Below, piece by piece: positions 6,319 through 20,867 of a stretch of 64,000 nucleotides of DNA (its first letter is position 1; each line of letters begins with the position of its first letter). Origin of the DNA: Neoroseomonas oryzicola (GTDB lineage: Bacteria; Pseudomonadota; Alphaproteobacteria; Acetobacterales; Acetobacteraceae); assembly GCF_012163135.1 (NCBI RefSeq), contig NZ_JAAVUP010000002.1, forward strand, positions 186,001-250,000, in the 5' to 3' direction. The notes below the pieces were generated by a model. That model searched no databases. It saw nothing but the letters and a program-made list of their open reading frames with translations, and was not told the origin of the DNA. Made by a program: the position numbers and the translations under genes.

Positions 6319-7911
6319 ATGTCCGGACCGACCCGCCGCGAGATGCTGCTTCTCGGCGCCACGGCCATGCTGCCGGTGCCCGTCGCCGCGCAGGAGGCGC
6401 CGCGCCGCGGTGGTGCGCTGACGGTGCATTTCGCGACCGAGCAGCGCATCCTCAACCCCTCCCTGCAGGCCTCGACAGGCGTCTACATCGTCGGCGGCAA
6501 GATCCAGGAGGCGCTGCTCGACCTCGACGCGCAGGGCAATCCGGTCGGCGTGCTGGCCGAGTCCTGGGAGTCCGCGCCGGATGGCCTGACCCATACCTTC
6601 CGCCTGCGCCGCGGCGTGACCTGGCATGACGGCAAGCCCTTCACCTCCGCCGACGTGCAGTTCACGGCGATGGAGATGTGGAAGAAGATCCTCAACTACG
6701 GGACCACCCTGCAGCAGTTCCTGACCGAGGTGCAGACGCCCGATCCGCACACAGCGGTCTTCAAGTACGAGAAGCCGATGCCGCAGGGCCTGCTGCTGCG
6801 CGCGCTGCCCGACCTCGGCTACATCTCGCCCAAGCATGTGTTCGAGACCGGCGACATCCGCCAGAACCCGGCGAACACCGCGCCGATCGGCACCGGTCCC
6901 TTCAAGTTCGTGCAGTACGAGCGCGGCCAGTTTATCATCGCCGACCGCAATCCGAACTACTGGCGCGACAACATGCCCTACCTGGACCGCGTGGTCTGGC
7001 GGGTCGTGAGCGACCGCGCCGCGGCGGCCGCGCAGCTCGAATCCGGGCAGCTCCTGTTCAGCCCCTATTCCTCGCTGGCCATCGCCGACCTGCAGCGCCT
7101 CGGCCGCGACCCGCGCTTCGAGGCGACGACGCGCGGCAACGAGGGCAATGTCCGCACCAACACGCTGGAATTCAACTTCCGCAACCCGGTGCTCGCCGAC
7201 ATCCGCGTGCGCAAGGCGATCGCGCATTCCCTGAACGTGCCCTTCTTCATCGAGAACTTCCTCGGGCCCTTCGCCAAGCCGGGCACCGGGCCGATCCCCT
7301 CGGTGTCGACCGACTACTACCCGACCGAGCCGATGCCGCAGTATGGCTACGACGTCGCGCTGGCGAACCGGCTGCTCGACGAGGCCGGCCAGCGCCGCGG
7401 CGCCGGCGGCGTGCGCTTCAGCGTCCGCCTGCTCCCCGCCCCCTGGGGCGAGGACATCGCGCTCTGGGCGACCTTCATCCAGCAGTCGCTGCAGCAGGTC
7501 GGCATTCGCGTCGAGATCGTCCGCAATGACGCCGCCGGCTTCCTGCGCAGCGTCTACAACGACTGGAACTTCGACCTCGCATCCGGCTGGCACCAGTACC
7601 GCAGCGACCCGGCGGTCAGCACGACGGTCTGGTACCGTTCCGGTAGCCCGCGCGGGGCACCCTGGACCAACCAGTGGGGCTGGAAGGACGACCGCATCGA
7701 CGGGATCATCGACGCCGCGGCGACCGAGGTCGATCCGGTGAAGCGCAAGGCGCTCTACGCCGACTTCGTGCGCGCGGTGCAGACGGAACTGCCGCTATGG
7801 ATGCCGATCGAGCAGATCTTCGTCTCGGTGTTCAACCGCCGCGTCCGCAATGCCGGCAACAACCCGCGCTGGGCGTCCTCGACCTGGCACGACACCTGGC
7901 TGGCGTCGTGA
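6319..7911 (+). CDS. ABC transporter substrate-binding protein (SBP family 5, peptide-type)
   Basis: 530 residues of the DppA/OppA class. The N-terminus has tandem arginines (TRRE) then a hydrophobic stretch ending at VAAQEA, fitting a Tat-like or Sec signal peptide. Family motifs include LRRGVTWHDGKPFTSADVQF (about residues 95-115), GTGPFKFVQYERG, and SGQLLFSPYSS. It binds its ligand in the periplasm and delivers it to the two permeases encoded directly downstream. SBP_bac_5 proteins carry peptides, opines, nickel or other compounds, so the ligand cannot be read from sequence. AGGAG lies a few bases before the ATG. The next gene starts about four bases after the stop. Confidence 0.9.
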   Translation: MSGPTRREMLLLGATAMLPVPVAAQEAPRRGGALTVHFATEQRILNPSLQASTGVYIVGGKIQEALLDLDAQGNPVGVLAESWESAPDGLTHTFRLRRGVTWHDGKPFTSADVQFTAMEMWKKILNYGTTLQQFLTEVQTPDPHTAVFKYEKPMPQGLLLRALPDLGYISPKHVFETGDIRQNPANTAPIGTGPFKFVQYERGQFIIADRNPNYWRDNMPYLDRVVWRVVSDRAAAAAQLESGQLLFSPYSSLAIADLQRLGRDPRFEATTRGNEGNVRTNTLEFNFRNPVLADIRVRKAIAHSLNVPFFIENFLGPFAKPGTGPIPSVSTDYYPTEPMPQYGYDVALANRLLDEAGQRRGAGGVRFSVRLLPAPWGEDIALWATFIQQSLQQVGIRVEIVRNDAAGFLRSVYNDWNFDLASGWHQYRSDPAVSTTVWYRSGSPRGAPWTNQWGWKDDRIDGIIDAAATEVDPVKRKALYADFVRAVQTELPLWMPIEQIFVSVFNRRVRNAGNNPRWASSTWHDTWLAS

Positions 7912-7915
7912 CGCC

Positions 7916-8893
7916 TTGAGGGTCCTGCGGCTTGCGCTGAGGCGGCTCGCCGCCTCGCTGCCCACGCTCGTGCTCATCCTGGTCGGGCTGTTCCTGCTGC
8001 TGCAGCTCGCCCCGGGCGACACGGTCGATGCGCTGATGGCGCAGATGGGCGGCGGCGACCAGGCGCTGGCGGAGGAACTGCGCCGCTTCTACGGCCTCGA
8101 TGTCGGGATCGCGGCGCAGCTCGGGCGCTACCTGATGCGGTTGGTGACGCTCGACCTCGGCTTCTCCTCGATCTACGGCAAGCCGGTCGCGACCGTGATC
8201 CTCGAGCGCCTGCCGGCGACGCTGCTGCTGATGGTCTCGGCGCTGTCTTTCGCCTTCTTCTTCGGGCTGGTGCTCGGCGTCGTGGCGGCGCGGCGGGTCA
8301 ACAAATGGCCCGATACGCTGATCTCGACGCTGGGGCTGGTCTTCTACGCGACGCCGTCCTTCTGGTTCGGGCTGATGGCGATCGTCCTGTTCAGCGTCTA
8401 CCTGCAATGGCTGCCGGCAGGCGGCTTCGGGGACATCACCCAGAACCTGACCGGCATCGCCGCCGTGCTCGACATCGCGCGCTACCTGGTGCTGCCGACG
8501 CTCACGCTGGGGCTGATCTTCCTCGCGATCTACCTGCGGATCATGCGGGCCTCGATGCTGGAGGTGCTGTCGCTCGACTTCGTGCGCACCGCACGGGCGA
8601 AGGGGCTGAGCGAGACGCGGGTCGTCGCGCGGCACGTCCTGCGGAACGCCATGCTGCCGATGGTCACGCTGATCGGGCTGCAGGCCGGCACCATGCTCGG
8701 CGGGTCGGTGGTGGTGGAGAGCGTCTTCGCCCTGCCGGGCCTCGGGCGGCTGGCCTATGAGAGCGTCGTGCAGCGCGATCTCAACACGCTGCTCGGCATC
8801 GCCTTCATCTCGGCGGTGCTCGTCATCTGCATAAACTTCCTCGTCGACATCCTCTATGCGCGGCTCGATCCGCGGATCTCGGCGGAGTCCTGA
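7916..8893 (+). CDS. ABC transporter permease (DppB/OppB-like)
   Basis: About 325 residues with six predicted membrane segments and the BPD permease fold. The EAA loop is visible around DFVRTARAKGLSETRVVARH (about residues 218-240), which docks on the ATPase. The family begins with a short basic stretch and a first helix, as seen here (LRLALRRLAASLPTLVLILV), which supports a TTG start at 7916. An ATG at 7850 would overlap the binding-protein gene by 61 bases and add an atypical N-terminus. The stop overlaps the ATG of the partner permease (TGATG). Confidence 0.88.
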   Translation: MRVLRLALRRLAASLPTLVLILVGLFLLLQLAPGDTVDALMAQMGGGDQALAEELRRFYGLDVGIAAQLGRYLMRLVTLDLGFSSIYGKPVATVILERLPATLLLMVSALSFAFFFGLVLGVVAARRVNKWPDTLISTLGLVFYATPSFWFGLMAIVLFSVYLQWLPAGGFGDITQNLTGIAAVLDIARYLVLPTLTLGLIFLAIYLRIMRASMLEVLSLDFVRTARAKGLSETRVVARHVLRNAMLPMVTLIGLQAGTMLGGSVVVESVFALPGLGRLAYESVVQRDLNTLLGIAFISAVLVICINFLVDILYARLDPRISAES

Positions 8894-9722
8894 TGCGCGC
8901 GCTGAAGGCCTATTGCCGCAGCCCGGCGGCGCTGATTGGGACCGCGATCCTGATGGCCGTCGTCGTCATGGGGGTGGGCGCGACTTTCTTCTATCCGAAC
9001 GATCCGCTTGGCCTGGCCGGACGGCCTCTGCAATGGCCAGGCGCCAACCCGCGTTTTCCGCTCGGCACCGACCCGTCCGGGCGCGACATCGCGGCGCAGT
9101 TGTTCCATGGCGCGCGCGTATCGCTGCTGATCGGCTTCGTCGCGACCTCCATCGCGGTGATGATCGGCATCGCCATCGGTGCGCTGTCCGGCTTCTACGG
9201 CGGCGTGACGGACACGGCGCTGATGCGCGTGACCGAGGCCTTCCAGACCCTGCCCAACTTCCTACTGTTGCTGGTCCTCGTCGCGGTGTTCGGCTCGACC
9301 ATCGAGACGGTGACGATCGCCATCGGCCTCGTCTCCTGGCCACCGGTCGCGCGGCTGACGCGGGCGGAGTTCCTCACCCTGCGCACCCGCGACTTCGTGC
9401 AGGCCTGCCGCGTGCAGGGCCTGTCCGACCTGCACCTGATCGTACGGGAGGTGCTGCCCAACGCGCTGCCGCCGGTGATCGTCTATGCCTCGGTCGTCAT
9501 GGCGGTGGCGATCCTGCTCGAGAGCGCGCTGGCCTTCCTGCAACTGTCGGATCCCAACGTGCCGTCTTGGGGGAACCTCATCGGCCTCGGACGCAACGTG
9601 CTGCGGACGGAGTGGTACGTCTCGGCTATTCCGGGTGTCGCGATCCTGCTGACCATCCTCGGCGTGTCGCTGGTGGGGCAGGGGCTCAACGACGCGCTGA
9701 ACCCGCGCCTGGCGGCCAGCCG

Positions 9723-9726
<4 letters not shown>
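8893..9726 (+). CDS. ABC transporter permease (DppC/OppC-like)
   Basis: 277 residues. It has the OppC N-terminal pattern: one membrane helix, a periplasmic loop with LGTDPSGRDIAAQLFHGARV (about 57-76), then the BPD permease domain with an EAA-type loop near RDFVQACRVQGLSDLHLIVR. With the preceding permease it forms the heterodimeric inner-membrane channel of a dipeptide-type importer. The start overlaps the previous stop and its own stop overlaps the next ATG (ATGA), so all transport genes here are translationally coupled. Confidence 0.9.
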
Positions 9727-11299
<1,573 letters not shown>

Positions 11300-11309
<10 letters not shown>

Positions 11310-11322
11310 CGCTCAGGTCGCG
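11300..11322. terminator. Palindrome spanning both convergent stop codons
   Basis: CGCGACCTGA at 11300-11309 and TCAGGTCGCG at 11313-11322 form a perfect 10-bp inverted repeat with a three-base loop. The two TGA stops of the convergent genes sit inside the arms, because both proteins end in Ala-Thr-stop written with the same codons. There is no T-tract. A bidirectional terminator is a reasonable inference. Confidence 0.5.
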
Positions 11323-12077
11323 TAGTCGGGTTCCTCGCGGTCCAGCACCCGGCGCCAGGCATCGAGGTGCAGCCGCGCGTCGAGCTTCTCGCCCCAGGCG
11401 CCGGTGTGATGGCGGCGCAGGTTGTCCGGCAACTTGTGCAGCGGCAGGCCCGTCTGCATCGCGGTCATCTGGTACATGGTCGTGCGCTCGGCCATGTAGG
11501 TCTCGTCGAAGGCGTCGTGGACGGTCGGGCCGACCACCGTCACGCCATGGCCGCGCATGACCATGATGGTCTTGTCGCCCATCAGCCGCGCGATGCGGTC
11601 GCCTTCCTCGTTGCTGTGGACGGGCTGGTCGCCCTCGCCGTCATAGACCGTGCGGTCGTTCAGCAGCAGGCTGTTGTGGTGCGAGAGGGAGAATTCCGCG
11701 CCCTCGATCATCGACAGCGCCGTCAGCCAGCGCGGATGGACGTGCACCACGCAGGTCGCCTTCGGGTTCGCGAGGTGGATGCGGCAATGGATGTGGAAGG
11801 CGACCTTGCGGAGCTCGCCCTTGCCGCGCAGCACCTGGCCGTCGAGGTTGCAGACGATCAGGTCGCTCGCCCGCAACTCCTGGAACAGGTAGCCGCGGGG
11901 GTTGATGAGGAAGGTCGGCTCCGCCTCGTCCGGCAGCATCAGCGAATTGTGGTTGCCGATGTGCTCGTTCCAGCCAAGCCGCGCGCCGATGCGGAACACC
12001 GCGGCCATGTCGCAGCGGAGCGCCCATTCGCGTTCCTCCGCCTTGCTGCTGGTGAGGGTGCGGACGACATTCGCCAT
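11313..12077 (-). CDS. Class II aldolase/adducin family protein
   Basis: 254 residues of the AraD/FucA aldolase fold. The zinc-binding HxH is visible in CVVHVHPRWLTALS (about residues 105-118) and the later His in MRGHGVTVVG (about 175). HNSLLLNDRTVYDGEG follows the HxH region. Family members cleave sugar phosphates or act as decarboxylases; many catabolic members act on unphosphorylated hydroxy-acids, so the reaction is undefined. The start is ATG 12077 with a GGAGG six to eight bases upstream, which rules out longer forms. It is divergent from the dimethylformamidase-like gene at 12202, and the shared 124-base region probably holds both promoters. Confidence 0.85.
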   Translation of the reverse strand: MANVVRTLTSSKAEEREWALRCDMAAVFRIGARLGWNEHIGNHNSLMLPDEAEPTFLINPRGYLFQELRASDLIVCNLDGQVLRGKGELRKVAFHIHCRIHLANPKATCVVHVHPRWLTALSMIEGAEFSLSHHNSLLLNDRTVYDGEGDQPVHSNEEGDRIARLMGDKTIMVMRGHGVTVVGPTVHDAFDETYMAERTTMYQMTAMQTGLPLHKLPDNLRRHHTGAWGEKLDARLHLDAWRRVLDREEPDYAT

Positions 12078-12201: not shown

Positions 12202-14397
12202 ATGTCCCCGCCGCTGCCGATCGCCGAACTGCCGATCACGGGCTACCTCGACCGCTTCTCGCATCGGCCCGGCGAACGCTTCACGGCCCATGTGAGCGTG
12301 CGGGACGGCGGGACGGCGCGGGCGCGTCTGGTGCGGGTGATCTCCGGCGATCCGAACCCGGCCGGTCCGGGGCTGCGCTTCGAGGACCTGTCGCAGCGCT
12401 TCGACGTAACCTTCGCGGGACGTCGGCAGCCGATCCGGCTTGGATCCCACGCGGTGGTGCCGCGCGCACCGCGCCGCGCGGCCGGGCCGCTCACCTGGAC
12501 GGCGCTGGTCTGGATGGCCGCCCTGCCGCCGGGAGAGGCGACGATCCTCTGCGAAGTGGCCGAGGGCGTTGCGTCCACCCTGGCGATCGGGCGCGACGGC
12601 GTGACGGGCATCGTGAGCGCGGATGCGCAGGCCGTCGTCGTCGCGACCGGACGCGCGCCCGCCCTGCGCCGCTGGTATCGCGTCTGGCTGAGCGCCGATC
12701 CCGGCACCGGCCGCGTCGCGGTCGGCGTGGCGCCGTTGGACGGCGGCGCGGCGACGGTGGCGACCGCGGTGGTGCCCGGCCTGCGGATACCGCCGGGCGG
12801 CGGGCGCATCACCATCGCGGCGAATGGGGCCCCGCAGCCGTCCAACCACTTCACTGGCAAGATCGAGGATCCCGCCCTGCTCGAGGGCTATCGCGACGCC
12901 TGGCCGCATCCGGACGCGACGCTCGCCGCGCTGGCGCCGATCGCGGGCTGGGACTTCGCGCGCGACATCCCGACGCAGCGCATCCTCGATATCGGCGATC
13001 AGGCCTGCGACGGCCACCTCGTGAACATCCCGACCCGCGCGGTGGTCGGCGCGCGCTGGTCAGGGCGCGAGATGTGCTGGCGCCACGCGCCGGCGGACTA
13101 CGCCGCGATCCATTTCCACGCCGACGACCTTGGCGATTGCGGCTGGCAGGCGGACTTCGCCTTCGAGGTGCCGGCCGGCCTCCGCAGCGGCGCCTATGCC
13201 TTGCACCTGACCTGCGAGGGCGGAGAGGACTGGCTGCCGCTCTACATCCTGCCGCCGCGCGGGGAGGCGCAGGCGAGGGTCGCCTTCCTGGCCTCGACCT
13301 TCACCTACCAGGCCTATGCCAACCATGCGCGCGGCAATGCCGATGCGGCGTACAAGGCGCGCGTCGCGGCCTGGGGCGCTTATCCGCACAATCCCGACGA
13401 CTTTCCGATCTACGGACGGTCCACCTACAACAAGCATCCGGACGGCAGCGGCATCGCCTTCTCGTCGCGGCTGCGGCCGATCCTGACCATGCGGCCGGGC
13501 TTCCTGACCTTCAACGATGCGCGCGGGTCGGGGCTGCGGCATTACCCGGCCGACACGCACCTGCTTGCCTGGCTCGAGGCGAGGGGGATCGCCTTCGACG
13601 TCATCACCGACGAGGACCTGCACGAGGAAGGCGTCGGCCTGCTGAAGCCCTACAGCGTGGTGATGACGGGCTCTCACCCGGAATACCACACGCTGCAGAC
13701 CCTCGATGCGCTGGCCGCCTACACGCGGGACGGCGGGCGCCTGATGTACCTTGGCGGCAACGGTTTCTACTGGCGCATCGCGGTGACGCAGACGCTGCCG
13801 GGCGTGATGGAACTGCGCCGGGCCGAGGGCGGCATCCGTGCCTGGGCGGCCGAGCCTGGCGAATACTGGCACCAGACCGATGGCGCCTATGGCGGGCTGT
13901 GGCGGCGCAACCGGCGGCCGCCGCAGATGCTCGCCGGCGTCGGCTTCTCGGGGCAGGGGCTGTTCGAGGGCACGCATTACCGCCTGCTGCCGCTCGCGCG
14001 CGATCCGCGCCACGCCTGGATCTTCGACGGCGTGGAGGGCGAAACCTTCGGCGATTACGGCCTGTCGGGCGGCGGCGCCGCCGGCTTCGAACTGGACCGG
14101 GCCGACTTCGCGCTGGGCACGCCGGAGGGCACGGCGATCCTCGCGCGGTCCGAGGATCCACCGGCCTCCTTCGTCACGGTGCCTGAGGAGCTGCTGTCGC
14201 ACATCGCGACCGTCACCGGCGAGAAGCCCGATGCGCTGAAGCGCGCCGAGATCGTCTACTTCGAAACACCCGGCGGTGGCGCCGTCTTCGCCACCGGATC
14301 GATCACCTGGTGCGGCAGCCTCTGGCAGGATGGCGCCTTCCAGGGCCCGGTCAGCCGCATCATGGAGAACGTGCTGCGCCGTTTCGCAGCGCAATGA
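12202..14397 (+). CDS. N,N-dimethylformamidase-like large subunit
   Basis: 731 residues resembling the large subunit of N,N-dimethylformamidase, an iron amidohydrolase that releases dimethylamine and formate from DMF. The N-terminal half (to about 240) looks like a jelly-roll/lectin-like domain (NHFTGKIEDPALLEGY near its end). The C-terminal half holds the catalytic region: FTYQAYANHARG (Tyr369), IYGRSTYNKHPDGSG (Tyr409) and TGSHPEYHTLQTL (Glu494). The spacing of these residues is close to the two-Tyr-one-Glu iron site I recall for the Paracoccus enzyme, so they are candidate ligands. GAGGAG precedes ATG 12202. No gene for the roughly 15-kDa small subunit is visible nearby, so either the substrate differs or the protein acts alone. 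Confidence 0.75.
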   Translation: MSPPLPIAELPITGYLDRFSHRPGERFTAHVSVRDGGTARARLVRVISGDPNPAGPGLRFEDLSQRFDVTFAGRRQPIRLGSHAVVPRAPRRAAGPLTWTALVWMAALPPGEATILCEVAEGVASTLAIGRDGVTGIVSADAQAVVVATGRAPALRRWYRVWLSADPGTGRVAVGVAPLDGGAATVATAVVPGLRIPPGGGRITIAANGAPQPSNHFTGKIEDPALLEGYRDAWPHPDATLAALAPIAGWDFARDIPTQRILDIGDQACDGHLVNIPTRAVVGARWSGREMCWRHAPADYAAIHFHADDLGDCGWQADFAFEVPAGLRSGAYALHLTCEGGEDWLPLYILPPRGEAQARVAFLASTFTYQAYANHARGNADAAYKARVAAWGAYPHNPDDFPIYGRSTYNKHPDGSGIAFSSRLRPILTMRPGFLTFNDARGSGLRHYPADTHLLAWLEARGIAFDVITDEDLHEEGVGLLKPYSVVMTGSHPEYHTLQTLDALAAYTRDGGRLMYLGGNGFYWRIAVTQTLPGVMELRRAEGGIRAWAAEPGEYWHQTDGAYGGLWRRNRRPPQMLAGVGFSGQGLFEGTHYRLLPLARDPRHAWIFDGVEGETFGDYGLSGGGAAGFELDRADFALGTPEGTAILARSEDPPASFVTVPEELLSHIATVTGEKPDALKRAEIVYFETPGGGAVFATGSITWCGSLWQDGAFQGPVSRIMENVLRRFAAQ

Positions 14398-14439: not shown

Positions 14440-14484
14440 TCGCGCAATTCGGGTGGATCACGCATTTTCCGGGGGATGGTGCTC

Positions 14485-16056
14485 ATGAAGCGCTCTCGTC
14501 TTGCGTCCTCGATCCTCGCGGTGGGCCTTGGCCTGCCGGCGGCGGCCCTCGCGGCACCATTCCAATGCCCGTCGCGCGGAGGCGACATCGTCTTCGGGCA
14601 GGAAGCCAACGTGAACTCGCTGGACCAGATGACGTCCAGCACCATCTCGACCCGCAACATCGCGATGAACATCTACGAATCGCTGATGACGCGCGACGAG
14701 AACAACCGCCCGATCCTCGAGCTCGCTGAGAGCATGGAGGAAGCGCCGGACGGGATGACCTACACCTTCCGGCTGCGCCGCGGCATCACCTTCCACAACG
14801 GCAAGCCGATGACCTCGGCCGATGTCGCGGCCTCCTTCAACCGCTACAACCGCATCGGGCTGCAGCGCAGCACGCTCGACAACGTGGCGGGCTGGGACAC
14901 ACCGGACCCGCACACCTTCGTCATCCGCATGAAGCAGGTGCAGCCGACCTTCATCGAGGCGTTGTCTTCCTTCTCGGTGCCGATCGTCATCATTCCCTCC
15001 GAGCACGAGAACGACGAACGGCAGCAGCTGCGCACGGTCGGCACCGGGCCGTTCCGGCTTCTGGAATTCACACCGGGCAGCCATGCGCGGCTCGGCCGCT
15101 TCGACGGCTACCAGCCGAACACGGCCTTCGAGCAGCGGACCGGATTCGGCGGCTATCGCGTCGCCTGCGTCGACACCGTCACCTTCCGCATCGTGACCGA
15201 GGCTTCCGCCCGCGTCGCCGGCCTCGAGACCGGCGCGCTGCATGCGGTGGAGGACGTGCCGACCCGTTCGGTCGAGGCGCTGCGCCGCAACAGCGCCATC
15301 ACCATCCTGCCGCTCGAGAACTGGTGGATCCAGATCGCGCTGCCCAACACATCGACGCCGCCGACCAACAACCTGGCTTTCCGCCGCGCGGTGCAGGCCG
15401 CGCTCGGCATGGAAGACATCATGGATGCGGCGACGGACGGCAACTATCGCCTGAACGTCGGCTTCCAGTTCCCCGGCCGTCCCGCCTACACGGACGCCGG
15501 CAAGGAGACGTACAACATCAACGACCAGGCGCGCGCCCGCGCGCTGCTGCGTGAATCCGGCTATCGCAACGAGCCGATCACCATCCTGACCAACCGCGAC
15601 TATCCGCCGATGTACAATGCGGCGCTGGTCATGCAGCAGCAGATGCGCGCGATCGGCATCAATGCGAACCTGCGCGTGGTGGACTGGCCGACCTCGGTGC
15701 AGATGTCGCAGCGGCTGAACAGCGACGAATGGCATTTCTACCATTCGGGCTGGGGCACGCAGCCGGCGCTCGGCGCGCTCGCGACTATGCAGTTCCTGGT
15801 CAGCCCCAATGCCGCCTATCGCCCGCGGGACGACCGCGACGATCCGGAGGTGATGGCGGCGTGGAACGCGATGAACAACGAGCGTTCCGCCGAAGCCCGC
15901 CAGGCCGCCTTCGCCACCATGCAGCGCCTGGTGCTGGAACGGGTCTACGCCATCCCCTTCGGATCGCTGACCAAGGTGCAGGCGGTGCGGTCCAACGTGC
16001 AGGGCTTCGTGCCCTTCCGCATCCCGCGCTTCTCCAACGTGTGGGTCCAGCGATAA
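14485..16056 (+). CDS. ABC transporter substrate-binding protein (SBP family 5, peptide-type)
   Basis: About 523 residues. A Sec signal peptide (KRSRLASSILAVGLGLPAAA) is followed by a mature part with LRRGITFHNGKPMTSADVAA and TVGTGPFRLLEF, the typical DppA-class landmarks. A GGGGG at 14471-14475 is spaced nine bases from ATG 14485 but directly abuts ATG 14476, so 14485 is preferred. It is the first gene of an operon encoding two permeases, two ATPases and a zinc deacylase. This suggests an N-acylated amino acid or peptide as ligand, by inference from context. Confidence 0.9.
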   Translation: MKRSRLASSILAVGLGLPAAALAAPFQCPSRGGDIVFGQEANVNSLDQMTSSTISTRNIAMNIYESLMTRDENNRPILELAESMEEAPDGMTYTFRLRRGITFHNGKPMTSADVAASFNRYNRIGLQRSTLDNVAGWDTPDPHTFVIRMKQVQPTFIEALSSFSVPIVIIPSEHENDERQQLRTVGTGPFRLLEFTPGSHARLGRFDGYQPNTAFEQRTGFGGYRVACVDTVTFRIVTEASARVAGLETGALHAVEDVPTRSVEALRRNSAITILPLENWWIQIALPNTSTPPTNNLAFRRAVQAALGMEDIMDAATDGNYRLNVGFQFPGRPAYTDAGKETYNINDQARARALLRESGYRNEPITILTNRDYPPMYNAALVMQQQMRAIGINANLRVVDWPTSVQMSQRLNSDEWHFYHSGWGTQPALGALATMQFLVSPNAAYRPRDDRDDPEVMAAWNAMNNERSAEARQAAFATMQRLVLERVYAIPFGSLTKVQAVRSNVQGFVPFRIPRFSNVWVQR

Positions 16057-16060
16057 CGCC

Positions 16061-17005
16061 ATGGCCGGGGTCGCCTTCCGCCGCCTGCTGAGCGCGATCC
16101 CGGTTCTCCTCATCGTCAGCCTGATCTCCTTCGGGCTGATGCGGCTGATCCCCGGCGACCCGGCCGCTGCCATCGCCGGGGTTTCCGCCACGCCGGCGCA
16201 GATCGAGCAGCTGCGCCGCGACCTCGGCCTCGACCAGCCGATCTACATGCAACTACTGGATTATTATCAGGGGCTGGCGCGGGGCGACCTCGGCAAGTCG
16301 CTGCTGCTCGGCAAGGGCGTCTTCGCCGCGACGATGGAACGGCTGCCGGTGACGATCGGGCTGTCGCTCTATGCCCTGGTCTTCACCCTGCTGATCGGAA
16401 TCGCCAGCGGCATCGTCGCGGCGCTGCGGCAGAATTCCTGGGTGGACCAGGCGGCGATGATGTTCGCGATGATCGGCATCTCGGTGCCGAACTTCTTCCT
16501 CGGCCTGCTGATGATCATCCTGTTCGCGGTGCATCTCGGCTGGCTGCCCTCGGGCGGCTACGTTGCCTTCAGCCAGGATCCGGCAGGGTGGCTGGCGAGC
16601 ACGACCATGCCGGCCTTCTCGCTCGCGCTGCTGCAGGCGGGGCTGCTCGCGCGCATCACGCGGTCCTCGATGCTGGAGGTGCTGCGCCAGGACTACATCC
16701 GCACCGCGCGCGCCAAGGGGCTGCCGCAGCGCAAGGTGGTGCTGAAGCACGCGCTGTCGAACGCGCTGATCCCGATCGTGACGGTGGTCGGCATCATCGT
16801 CTCCCTGCTGCTCTCGGGCGCAGTGGTGACGGAGGCGCTGTTCTCCCTGCCCGGGATGGGCCAGCTGCTGACACAGGCGGTGCTCAGCCGCGACTATCCG
16901 ATGGTGCAGGGCGGGCTGCTGCTGGTCACGACCTTCCTCGTGCTGGTGAACATCACCGTGGACACGCTCTACGCCGTGCTCGACCCACGGGTACGCTATG
17001 AGTGA
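16061..17005 (+). CDS. ABC transporter permease (DppB/OppB-like)
   Basis: 314 residues, six membrane segments. The OppB periplasmic motif LIPGDPAAAIAGVSATPAQI follows the first helix, and the EAA loop appears around DYIRTARAKGLPQRKVVLKH (about 212-232). It forms the inner-membrane channel with the next gene product. The ATG lies four bases after the binding-protein stop, and its own stop overlaps the downstream ATG by eight bases, indicating a polycistronic unit. Confidence 0.92.
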   Translation: MAGVAFRRLLSAIPVLLIVSLISFGLMRLIPGDPAAAIAGVSATPAQIEQLRRDLGLDQPIYMQLLDYYQGLARGDLGKSLLLGKGVFAATMERLPVTIGLSLYALVFTLLIGIASGIVAALRQNSWVDQAAMMFAMIGISVPNFFLGLLMIILFAVHLGWLPSGGYVAFSQDPAGWLASTTMPAFSLALLQAGLLARITRSSMLEVLRQDYIRTARAKGLPQRKVVLKHALSNALIPIVTVVGIIVSLLLSGAVVTEALFSLPGMGQLLTQAVLSRDYPMVQGGLLLVTTFLVLVNITVDTLYAVLDPRVRYE

Positions 17006-17882
17006 CGTCGCGGACGCCGAAGGCATCGCGCTCAAGCGCGAGCACCCCGCGCGGGCGACGCTGCGGCGGCTGTTCCGGCATCGCCTGTTCGTCACCGGGT
17101 TGCTTCTGTTCGGCGTGATCGCCGTCATCGCCATCACGGCGCCCTGGATCACCACGGCCGATCCGCAGCGCCTGTCGATGCGCAACAAGTTCCTCCCGCC
17201 CGGCGAGGCCTGGGTGTTCGGGACCGACAATTTCGGACGTTCGCTGTGGTCGCGGGTGGTCTGGGGCGCACAGCTGTCGATGATCATCGGCGCGTCCGTG
17301 GTCGGGCTAAACGCGGTGTTCGGTACGCTGATCGGGGCGCTGGCCGGGTATTTCCGGCGGCTCGACAACGCGCTCATGCGGGTCAACGACGCGCTGATGG
17401 CGTTTCCGGCCATCCTGCTCGCGATCGCGGTGACGTCCGTGCTCGGGCCCTCGACGCTGAACGTCATCCTGGCGCTGTCGATCGTCTACATCCCGCGCAC
17501 CGCGCGCATCGTCCGCTCCTCGGTCATCGTGCTGCGGGAGATGGAATACGTGCAGGCCGCGGTCGCCGCCGGCGCGGGGCATTGGCGCATCCTGCGCCAT
17601 CACATCCTGCCGAACGCCATGGCGCCGATGATCGTGCAGCTCTCCTTCCTGTTCGCCTATGCGGTGCTGAGCGAGGCGACGCTGTCCTTCCTCGGCGTCG
17701 GTGCGGTGCCGCCGACGCCGACCTGGGGGAACATCATGGCCGAGGGCCGCGACTTCATGCGAGAGGCCCCCTGGATCATCACCATCCCCGGCGTCGCGCT
17801 GATGATCACGGTGATGGGGCTCAACTTGCTTGGCGACGGGCTGCGCGACGTGCTCGACCCGCGGCTCAGGATCCAGCAGTGA
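16998..17882 (+). CDS. ABC transporter permease (DppC/OppC-like)
   Basis: 294 residues. A cytoplasmic N-terminus and first helix lead into a loop with FGTDNFGRSLWSRVVWGAQL (about 74-93), diagnostic of OppC-type subunits, then the BPD domain with the EAA-like segment EMEYVQAAVAAGAGHWRILR. The gene overlaps both neighbours: it starts eight bases inside the previous permease and its TGA overlaps the GTG start of the following ATPase. Confidence 0.92.
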   Translation: MSDVADAEGIALKREHPARATLRRLFRHRLFVTGLLLFGVIAVIAITAPWITTADPQRLSMRNKFLPPGEAWVFGTDNFGRSLWSRVVWGAQLSMIIGASVVGLNAVFGTLIGALAGYFRRLDNALMRVNDALMAFPAILLAIAVTSVLGPSTLNVILALSIVYIPRTARIVRSSVIVLREMEYVQAAVAAGAGHWRILRHHILPNAMAPMIVQLSFLFAYAVLSEATLSFLGVGAVPPTPTWGNIMAEGRDFMREAPWIITIPGVALMITVMGLNLLGDGLRDVLDPRLRIQQ

Positions 17883-18852
17883 ATCTTCTCGAGGTCCGCG
17901 GCCTGACCACCGCCTTCATGACCGGACGTGGCGAGGTGAACGCCATCGAGGAGGTCTCCTTCTCGCTGAAGGAAGGGGAGATCCTCGGCATCGTCGGCGA
18001 GTCCGGCTCGGGCAAGTCGGTCACCGCGCTCACCGTCATGGGCCTGCTGCCGCAGCCCCCGGCGCGCGTCGCCGCCGGCGAAGTGGTGTTCAACGGCCAG
18101 AACCTCACGCGCATGTCGGATCGCGACATGCAGCGCATTCGCGGCCCCGGGATCTCGATGATCTTCCAGGAGCCAATGACCTCCCTGAACCCGGTCTTCT
18201 CGATCGGCGACCAGATCATGGAGACGATCGCCGCGCATGAGCGCCTGTCCCAGGCCGATCTGCGCAAGCGCGCGATCGACATGCTGGACAAGGTCGGCAT
18301 TCCCTCCGCCTCGAAGCGGTTGGACGATTATCCCCACCAGATGTCCGGCGGGCAGCGCCAGCGCGTGATGATCGCCATGGCGCTCGCCTGCAATCCGAAG
18401 CTGCTGATCGCGGACGAGCCAACCACAGCGCTGGATGTCACGATCCAGGCGCAGATCCTCGACCTGCTGATGGACCTGCGCGACGAGTTCGGCATGGCGA
18501 TCATGATCATCACCCACAACATGGGCGTGATCGCGGAGACCGCGGACCGGGTGCTGGTGATGTATGCCGGGCGGGTCATTGAGGAAGCACCGGTGGCGCA
18601 GGTCTTCGACCGCCCTCTGCACCCCTATACGCGTGGCCTGCTGGAATGCGTCCCCTCCTTGACCGAGGACAAGCCGCGCCTGGTCGCCATTCCCGGCACG
18701 CTGCCCGAACCCGCGCGCCGTCCGCCGGGTTGCCGCTTCGCCCCGCGCTGCAGCCACGCGCTGCCGGCCTGCTCCGAAGCAATCCCGGGTCTCGAGCTGC
18801 TGGAGCCCGCCCACGCCGTCGCCTGTTTCCGCGCGAAGGAGCTCGCGCCGGC

Positions 18853-18856
<4 letters not shown>
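17879..18856 (+). CDS. ABC transporter ATPase (DppD-like)
   Basis: 325 residues. Walker [17 protein letters not shown] (about 40), Q-loop [10 protein letters not shown], signature [15 protein letters not shown] and Walker [14 protein letters not shown] are intact. The C-terminal oligopeptide-transporter tail carries [16 protein letters not shown] plus a later Cys, the four-cysteine pattern associated in this family with a [4Fe-4S] cluster. The GTG at 17879 overlaps the upstream TGA and its stop overlaps the next ATG. Longer upstream frames are shadows of the permease. Confidence 0.93.
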
Positions 18857-19836
<980 letters not shown>

Positions 19837-19844
19837 GGAACGCC

Positions 19845-20867
19845 ATGTCCCAACAACGGAAGTCCCGCCTGGTCCCGGAAGTGGACTTTGCGAAGGATGG
19901 CAAGCAGACAGGCTTCATCCGCCTGTTCCATTCGACACATGAATCCGCCTACGGCTTCCTGCCCGTGCCGATCGTGGTGGTGAAGAACGGTGAGGGGCCG
20001 ACAGCGCTCTTCACCTCCGGCAACCATGGCGACGAGTACGAAGGCCAGGTCGCGCTGACCAACCTGATCAAGTGGCTCGAGCCCGGCATGATCAAGGGCC
20101 GCGTCATCATGATGCCGATGGCGAACTACCCGGCGGCGCTGATCGGCCGCCGCGTCTCGCCGATCGACGACCTCAACATGAACCGCATCTTCCCCGGCGA
20201 CCCCGATGGCACGGTGACGCGGCAGATCGCGCACTACATCGACAGCGAGCTCATCCCGCTCGCTGACCTGGTGATTGACCTGCATTCCGGCGGCTCGTCG
20301 CTGAACTACATCCCGACGGCGCTGGCCAAGCAGTCCGCCGATCCGGCGCTGTACCAGAAGCAGCTCGCCGCGCTGCGGGCCTTCGGCGCGCCCTACACCT
20401 ACATCCAGGGCGGCGCGCAGGGACAGGGCGGGGACCAGACGCTCGGGTCCGGCGCGGACCGGCGCGGCAAGATCGCGCTCGGCACGGAACTGGGCGGCGC
20501 GGGGGCGGTGAACGCGTCAGGCCTCGCGATCGCCGAGCGCGGGCTGCGGAACCTGCTCGTCCATCTCGGCATCCTCGGGCAGGCGCATTTCGTCGAACCC
20601 CCGGCACCGACGCGCTTCCTCGATGTGCGCGGACCCGAGATGTACGTCTATGCGCCCGAGAACGGCGTCTTCGAACCGCTGGTCGAACTGGGCGACACGG
20701 TCGCACCCGGCACCTCCGCCGCGCGCATCCACATGCCTGAGACACCGTGGCTGCCGCCGGTCGAGATCGCCTTCAAGGCCGCCGGCATCGTCATGTGCAA
20801 GCGCATCCCCGCGCGCACCAAGCGCGGGGACTGCCTGTTCCACTTGGCGAGCGACCTCGCCGTCTAG
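19845..20867 (+). CDS. Succinylglutamate desuccinylase/aspartoacylase-family zinc deacylase (DoeB-like)
   Basis: 340 residues of the M14-like AstE/aspartoacylase family. The zinc ligands are visible: His61 and Glu64 in GNHGDEYEG and His147 in DLHSGGSSLNYIP. NMNRIFPGDPDGT is the conserved Asn-Arg substrate-carboxylate region. It looks closest to the branch containing DoeB, which removes acetyl from N-alpha-acetyl-diaminobutyrate in ectoine degradation, but no other doe genes are present. Family members hydrolyse N-acyl amino acids in the cytoplasm. Its place as last gene of a peptide-type ABC operon suggests that it processes the imported ligand. Confidence 0.82.
   Translation: MSQQRKSRLVPEVDFAKDGKQTGFIRLFHSTHESAYGFLPVPIVVVKNGEGPTALFTSGNHGDEYEGQVALTNLIKWLEPGMIKGRVIMMPMANYPAALIGRRVSPIDDLNMNRIFPGDPDGTVTRQIAHYIDSELIPLADLVIDLHSGGSSLNYIPTALAKQSADPALYQKQLAALRAFGAPYTYIQGGAQGQGGDQTLGSGADRRGKIALGTELGGAGAVNASGLAIAERGLRNLLVHLGILGQAHFVEPPAPTRFLDVRGPEMYVYAPENGVFEPLVELGDTVAPGTSAARIHMPETPWLPPVEIAFKAAGIVMCKRIPARTKRGDCLFHLASDLAV

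Follow-up and report, generated by a model that had tools for sequence, protein, structure and literature searches.

Two described enzymes frame the locus reported here. The first is the N,N-dimethylformamidase (DMFase) of Paracoccus aminophilus, whose large subunit DmfA2 (PDB 6lvb; plasmid pAMI2) holds its iron through Y399, Y440 and E521, is inactive when H519, N547 or E657 is mutated, and carries a phenylalanine, Phe693, that according to its authors restricts the pocket and the size of the substrate (PMC7686228); residues are numbered here on the P. aminophilus protein, which shows no offset against chain 6lvb_A. Alone, this large subunit is inactive; the authors regard the small subunit, DmfA1, as a stabiliser of the structure that possibly also shapes the entrance (PMC7686228). 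The second is an N-acetyl-(R)-beta-phenylalanine acylase (PDB 8huy, 8i59 and 8i5a), a function that we take from the names of the PDB entries. These entries name one molecule, and their chains gave no match to DmfA1 at E up to 1; DmfA1 of pAMI2 matches the small subunit in six DMFase PDB entries. The single-subunit state is therefore not new.

The window – a stretch of 64,000 nucleotides from the genome of Neoroseomonas oryzicola – encodes at 12202-14397 a full-length DMFA2-family protein of 731 residues, which lies among the following features:

6319..11309, + strand: upstream peptide-type ABC importer (binding protein matching PF00496, E 5.4e-79; two permeases; fused double ATPase)
11313..12077, - strand: class II aldolase/adducin-family protein (PF00596, E 1.3e-38), divergent from the enzyme; start placed at MANVVRTL by inspection; the query sequence ran from 12125
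12202..14397, + strand: DMFA2-family amidohydrolase of the single-subunit acylase branch (731 aa; PF20254, structure match, tree)
14476..16056, + strand: peptide-type (family 5) solute-binding protein of the downstream importer (PF00496, E 1.6e-68; query from 14485)
16061..17005, + strand: permease 1 of the downstream importer (open reading frame; family from position)
16998..17882, + strand: permease 2 of the downstream importer (open reading frame; family from position)
17879..18856 (start approximate), + strand: ATPase 1 of the downstream importer (within the open reading frame 17246-18856; by eye)
18853..19836 (start approximate), + strand: ATPase 2 of the downstream importer (within the open reading frame 18646-19836; by eye)
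19845..20867, + strand: DoeB-like deacetylase/acylase of the AstE/AspA family (PF24827, E 7.1e-37)

Open reading frames and profiles thus bear out the neighbourhood described in the initial annotation: a class II aldolase and two peptide-type importers, with a deacylase after the second. The profiles assign this deacylase to the AstE/AspA type. No aminotransferase stands next to the enzyme in the window, and neither the aldolase nor the downstream binding protein has a database match that names a substrate. The last gene belongs to the same AstE/AspA family as DoeB, the N-acetyl-L-2,4-diaminobutanoate deacetylase, but at 301.9 bits it falls short of the TIGR02994 cut-off of 402.7 and is not assigned to the DoeB equivalog; its PDB matches are 3cdx and 6twm (256.6 bits to 6twm). 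Public annotation labels proteins such as that of 12202-14397 'N,N-dimethylformamidase beta subunit family', a name that evokes solvent degradation and an absent partner. The enzyme is 86% identical to its homologue in N. eburnea, and inspection by eye revealed no signal peptide.

Membership of the family is plain: PF20254 (DMFA2_C) matches the protein at E 6.3e-97, with 325.8 bits against a curated cut-off of 27. The resemblance is closest to the acylase, which is the best solved match by sequence (8huy, 719.7 bits, versus 406.6 for the DMFase large subunit) and shares 49.9% identity with it, compared to 36.4% for DMFase; over residues 356-731 the figures are 60.3% and 42.5%. An AlphaFold2 model built from 55 sequences (pLDDT 93.6, pTM 0.92) predicts a full-length fold that superposes on 8huy_B over 712 residues (Z 58.0, rmsd 1.8) and on 6lvb_A over 701 (Z 49.3, rmsd 2.4), and Foldseek likewise ranks the acylase ahead of DMFase. 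At the level of the fold, therefore, the comparison with the known DMFase proposed in the initial annotation comes out in agreement. Half of the residues nonetheless differ from those of the acylase, which leaves room for a different substrate. A search of plasmids with the acylase found no nearer homologue, the best being 47% identical.

A critical issue is whether the residues upon which catalysis depends are in place. In the alignment Y399, Y440 and E521 of DMFase correspond to Tyr372, Tyr409 and Glu494 of the window enzyme, and H519, N547 and E657 to His492, Asn520 and Glu630. Two of the three iron ligands named from the sequence alone, Tyr409 and Glu494, thus stand, while the third, Tyr369, gives way to Tyr372: Tyr369, three residues away, aligns with Tyr396 of DMFase, which is not a ligand, and its position is occupied by H, C or F in eight of 122 members of the enzyme's clade (defined below). 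The six ligand and catalytic positions, by comparison, are invariant in 60 aligned homologues and in all 122 members of that clade; among 48 sequences from two-subunit loci five of them are invariant, with the Asn520 position being Asp in five. Judged by alignment, the enzyme appears to carry the full DMFase-type set of two tyrosines and one glutamate together with the catalytic His, Asn and Glu. It is probably an iron-dependent amide-cutting enzyme, although that its metal is iron we infer by analogy with DMFase. The two-subunit homologues with Asp at the position of the catalytic Asn547 of DMFase are those of loci L236, L237, L238, L239 and L240.

The relationship between the two kinds of enzyme was examined through a tree of the family. 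Our loci, which overlap, yielded 290 DMFA2 open reading frame rows, 223 of them near full length; removal of identical sequences and addition of 8huy left 184 for FastTree. An adjacent small subunit was lacking for 132 of these, present for 48 and unknown for four – proportions that are not natural frequencies, because we fetched two-subunit loci deliberately, whereas most single-subunit loci came in through their relationship to the window protein – where 'lacking' means no same-strand profile match within about 700 bases upstream, at least 450 bases being seen. The window enzyme and 8huy fall together in a clade of 122 (local support 0.965), in which an adjacent small subunit is absent from 119 members, present in none, and beyond the reach of the available flank in three; the smallest clade joining the two holds 76 sequences (support 0.826). 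All 48 two-subunit sequences lie on the other side of the tree, along with 13 that lack a small subunit and one unknown. Three of these 13 (two in L235 and one in L246) are in tandem with a two-subunit pair, and another is a second DMFA2 copy from the window genome itself. The window enzyme thus groups with the acylase and apart from the two-subunit enzymes, and since the tree is midpoint-rooted we make no claim on gain or loss of the small subunit. In L235 and L246, which hold three and two tandem DMFA2 genes respectively, one small-subunit gene was detected, adjoining one of the copies.

Several residues separate the branches. Scanning the alignment post hoc for positions that differ between them pointed to Arg446-His447, present in 122 of 122 clade members and in none of the 48 two-subunit sequences; Trp occupies position 446 in 36 of the latter, and the aligned pair in DMFase is Trp-Glu. 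Further separating positions are Arg377, Trp391, Asn410 and Phe588. In addition, Ser666 stands where DMFase has its size-limiting Phe693, a position that 119 of the 122 fill with Ser, Thr, Ala or Gly. In the model residues 446-447 directly precede a predicted helix (448-460) at the edge of the alpha/beta sheet, where the topology would place ligand loops, and the pair may have a role in binding the carboxylate of the substrate. Twelve chosen positions are identical in the window enzyme and the acylase, but most are so throughout the clade: they place the enzyme in its branch and do not single out a beta-amino acid. The sampled family thus falls into two parts, the single-chain acylase branch and another to which every two-subunit enzyme seen belongs; a simple residue mark distinguishes the two.

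DmfA2 is inactive without DmfA1 (PMC7686228), and no DmfA1 was found in the window genome. No small-subunit gene adjoins 12202-14397, as had been noted from the sequence, and the profile detects none fused into the window protein. Two queries were used for the genome-wide search that the initial annotation proposed: the DmfA1 protein of pAMI2, which as a positive control recovered its own gene on that plasmid, and a profile of 14 aligned small subunits. The single protein matched in 18 of 385 alphaproteobacterial genomes, too insensitive a result, and was replaced by the profile, which matched in 37, all of them among the 78 of 385 genomes with DMFA2_C. Neither query found a small subunit in the window genome (all 22 candidates there being scored against the profile), and the profile found none in any of the 35 same-genus genomes, the window genome included. 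The idea that loss of a partner gene is a quirk of this one genome was accordingly rejected. The missing gene is instead normal for the branch, given that the closest studied relative works without the helper subunit of DMFase; the single-chain state is of a kind already known.

Gene company provides evidence of a different sort. The enzyme has a match in 33 of 35 same-genus genomes (in G009 only a 301-residue piece at 58%), and wide flanks were fetched for 14 same-genus loci. In all 14 the aldolase, the downstream binding protein, both permeases, ATPase 2 and the DoeB-like gene accompany the enzyme, ATPase 1 being left out of the counts. The position 'between two importers' is accordingly true of the window, but only the downstream importer is conserved with the enzyme in the genus. 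The upstream importer, present in seven of the 14 loci, was rejected as a part of the system and is probably incidental. The gene set conserved within the genus ties the acylase to partners, and makes its substrate directly testable.

Beyond the genus the association thins. We counted as orthologous a binding protein of at least 55% identity within 3.5 kb of the enzyme, dropping 23 short-flank loci from the count by identity tier and accepting that some genomes appear twice (L013/L120, L016/L132, L040/L118). Among the 27 relatives 60-77% identical to the enzyme with enough flank, 20 have the binding protein nearby, four a class III aminotransferase and three neither; below 60% the aminotransferase is found in five of 32 and the binding protein, by the same rule, in none. 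The importer link is thus mostly gone below 60% identity, although L043 from that tier has the importer module within about 8 kb; the short-flank locus L081 has the module too. In the tier of at least 77% no aminotransferase adjoins the enzyme in any of 15 loci (again with some genomes twice). In several loci (L018, L026 and L031) the importer is divergent from the enzyme, showing that the link survives rearrangement. Binding proteins of 27-30% identity adjoin the enzyme in aminotransferase and other loci (L033, L036, L037, L038, L041 and L078).

The aminotransferase lies upstream of the enzyme in Roseomonas marmotae and in Palleronia, where in addition an aldolase lies directly downstream. 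A Pfam scan of 99 of 141 called neighbours in loci L043-L087, made with a crude gene caller that left L050, L057 and L065 uncalled, gave class III aminotransferases as the commonest family near the enzyme (eight of 99), followed by MFS transporters (six), as raw counts. Together these neighbours hint, weakly, at an amino acid or amine product. For the R. marmotae aminotransferase the closest PDB entries are general class III enzymes, so the match does not name the amino acid; many class III aminotransferase genes are present in the window genome, the best 40% identical.

Taken together, we consider it likely that 12202-14397 encodes a cytoplasmic single-chain iron acylase that deacylates an imported N-acyl amino acid and so releases the amino acid. 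This agrees with the earlier proposal of an amidohydrolase that would act, as a single subunit, on an N-substituted amide other than dimethylformamide: the nearest solved relative is an acylase, and no small subunit was seen in the genome or alongside the 122-member clade. The chain would probably be homodimeric, as the two-chain acylase entries suggest, and would on its own do what the small subunit does in DMFase. A mononuclear Fe(III), presumably held by Tyr372, Tyr409 and Glu494, would carry a water molecule for attack on the carbon of the amide; Glu630 would serve as the base and Asn520 would stabilise the oxyanion, as proposed for DMFase (PMC7686228). His492 would join the iron, Glu630 and Asn520 in this hydrolysis, the substrate being an N-acylated amino acid, possibly a beta-amino acid or another non-standard one that carries an N-acetyl group. 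The products would be the free amino acid and the acyl acid. Peptide-type importers carry many substrates, and the conserved downstream importer may be the route by which this one enters. The DoeB-like deacetylase and the class II aldolase-like enzyme could act on related or downstream compounds, and in some relatives the class III aminotransferase may take the released amine.

The nature of the amino acid divides this explanation. It is quite possible, although we put it at somewhat less than an even chance, that the enzyme is an iron acylase of the same branch whose substrate is not a beta-amino acid derivative but an N-acylated alpha- or D-amino acid, an N-acyl peptide or a cyclic amide. 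The conserved gene set includes a peptide-type importer and a second deacylase, the latter resembling N-acetyl-diaminobutyrate deacetylase; moreover, on a plasmid of Burkholderia vietnamiensis a two-subunit relative has genes for a D-amino-acid dehydrogenase and an alanine racemase in its vicinity. Against this, the nearest solved relative is named for a beta-amino acid, and we know of no other characterised member of the branch, while the residues do not decide, the positions common with the acylase being clade-wide. The Burkholderia locus (L294, plasmid pBVIE01) has a small-subunit gene immediately before its DMFA2 gene, at 106.7 bits to the profile, and an amino-acid ABC importer besides the two enzymes, an assemblage that suggests N-acyl-D-amino acid substrates there.

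That the gene instead encodes a true N,N-dimethylformamidase, or an amidase of small formamides, that lost or never needed its small subunit is very unlikely. The fold, the ligands, the catalytic residues and the public annotation are those such an enzyme would have. Yet the large subunit of DMFase is inactive alone (PMC7686228), the two enzymes belong to different clades, Ser666 replaces the size-limiting phenylalanine, Arg446-His447 stands in place of Trp-Glu, and occurrence in nearly all same-genus genomes is unexpected of a solvent-degrading gene. A non-catalytic or moonlighting descendant that keeps the fold and hydrolyses nothing is scarcely credible: all 122 clade members agree at the six catalytic positions, and the gene company is conserved.

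Returning to the single-chain acylase, a broader conjecture may be put forward tentatively, as one we would not yet favour over its negation: that the single-subunit branch of the DMFase family consists of N-acyl amino acid acylases; that Arg446-His447 binds the substrate carboxylate where the two-subunit enzymes mostly hold an aromatic residue, the two-residue motif telling acylases from formamidase-like enzymes; and that in Neoroseomonas-type bacteria the acylase makes up, together with an importer dedicated to it, a second deacetylase and an aldolase, a candidate undescribed pathway by which N-acyl derivatives of beta-amino acids or of other non-standard amino acids are scavenged.

The second DMFA2 copy in the window genome (G000:C5:39163-41352; loci L002 and L134) is 45% identical to the window enzyme and has Tyr-Trp at 446-447; its specificity should differ. 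It adjoins a solute-binding protein 27% identical to that of the window, and likewise no small-subunit partner was found for it. The DmfA1-like small subunits themselves (L147-L170 and L200-L232) form a divergent family, of which 14 were aligned; DmfA1 of pAMI2 has no Pfam model match at E values up to 0.1, and in some Agrobacterium plasmids the region matching the small subunit coincides with an annotated ABC permease feature. Also on pAMI2, a predicted carbapenem-class beta-lactamase (AAK-1; L003:5861-6124) lies inside an IS3 transposase and is probably an annotation artefact.
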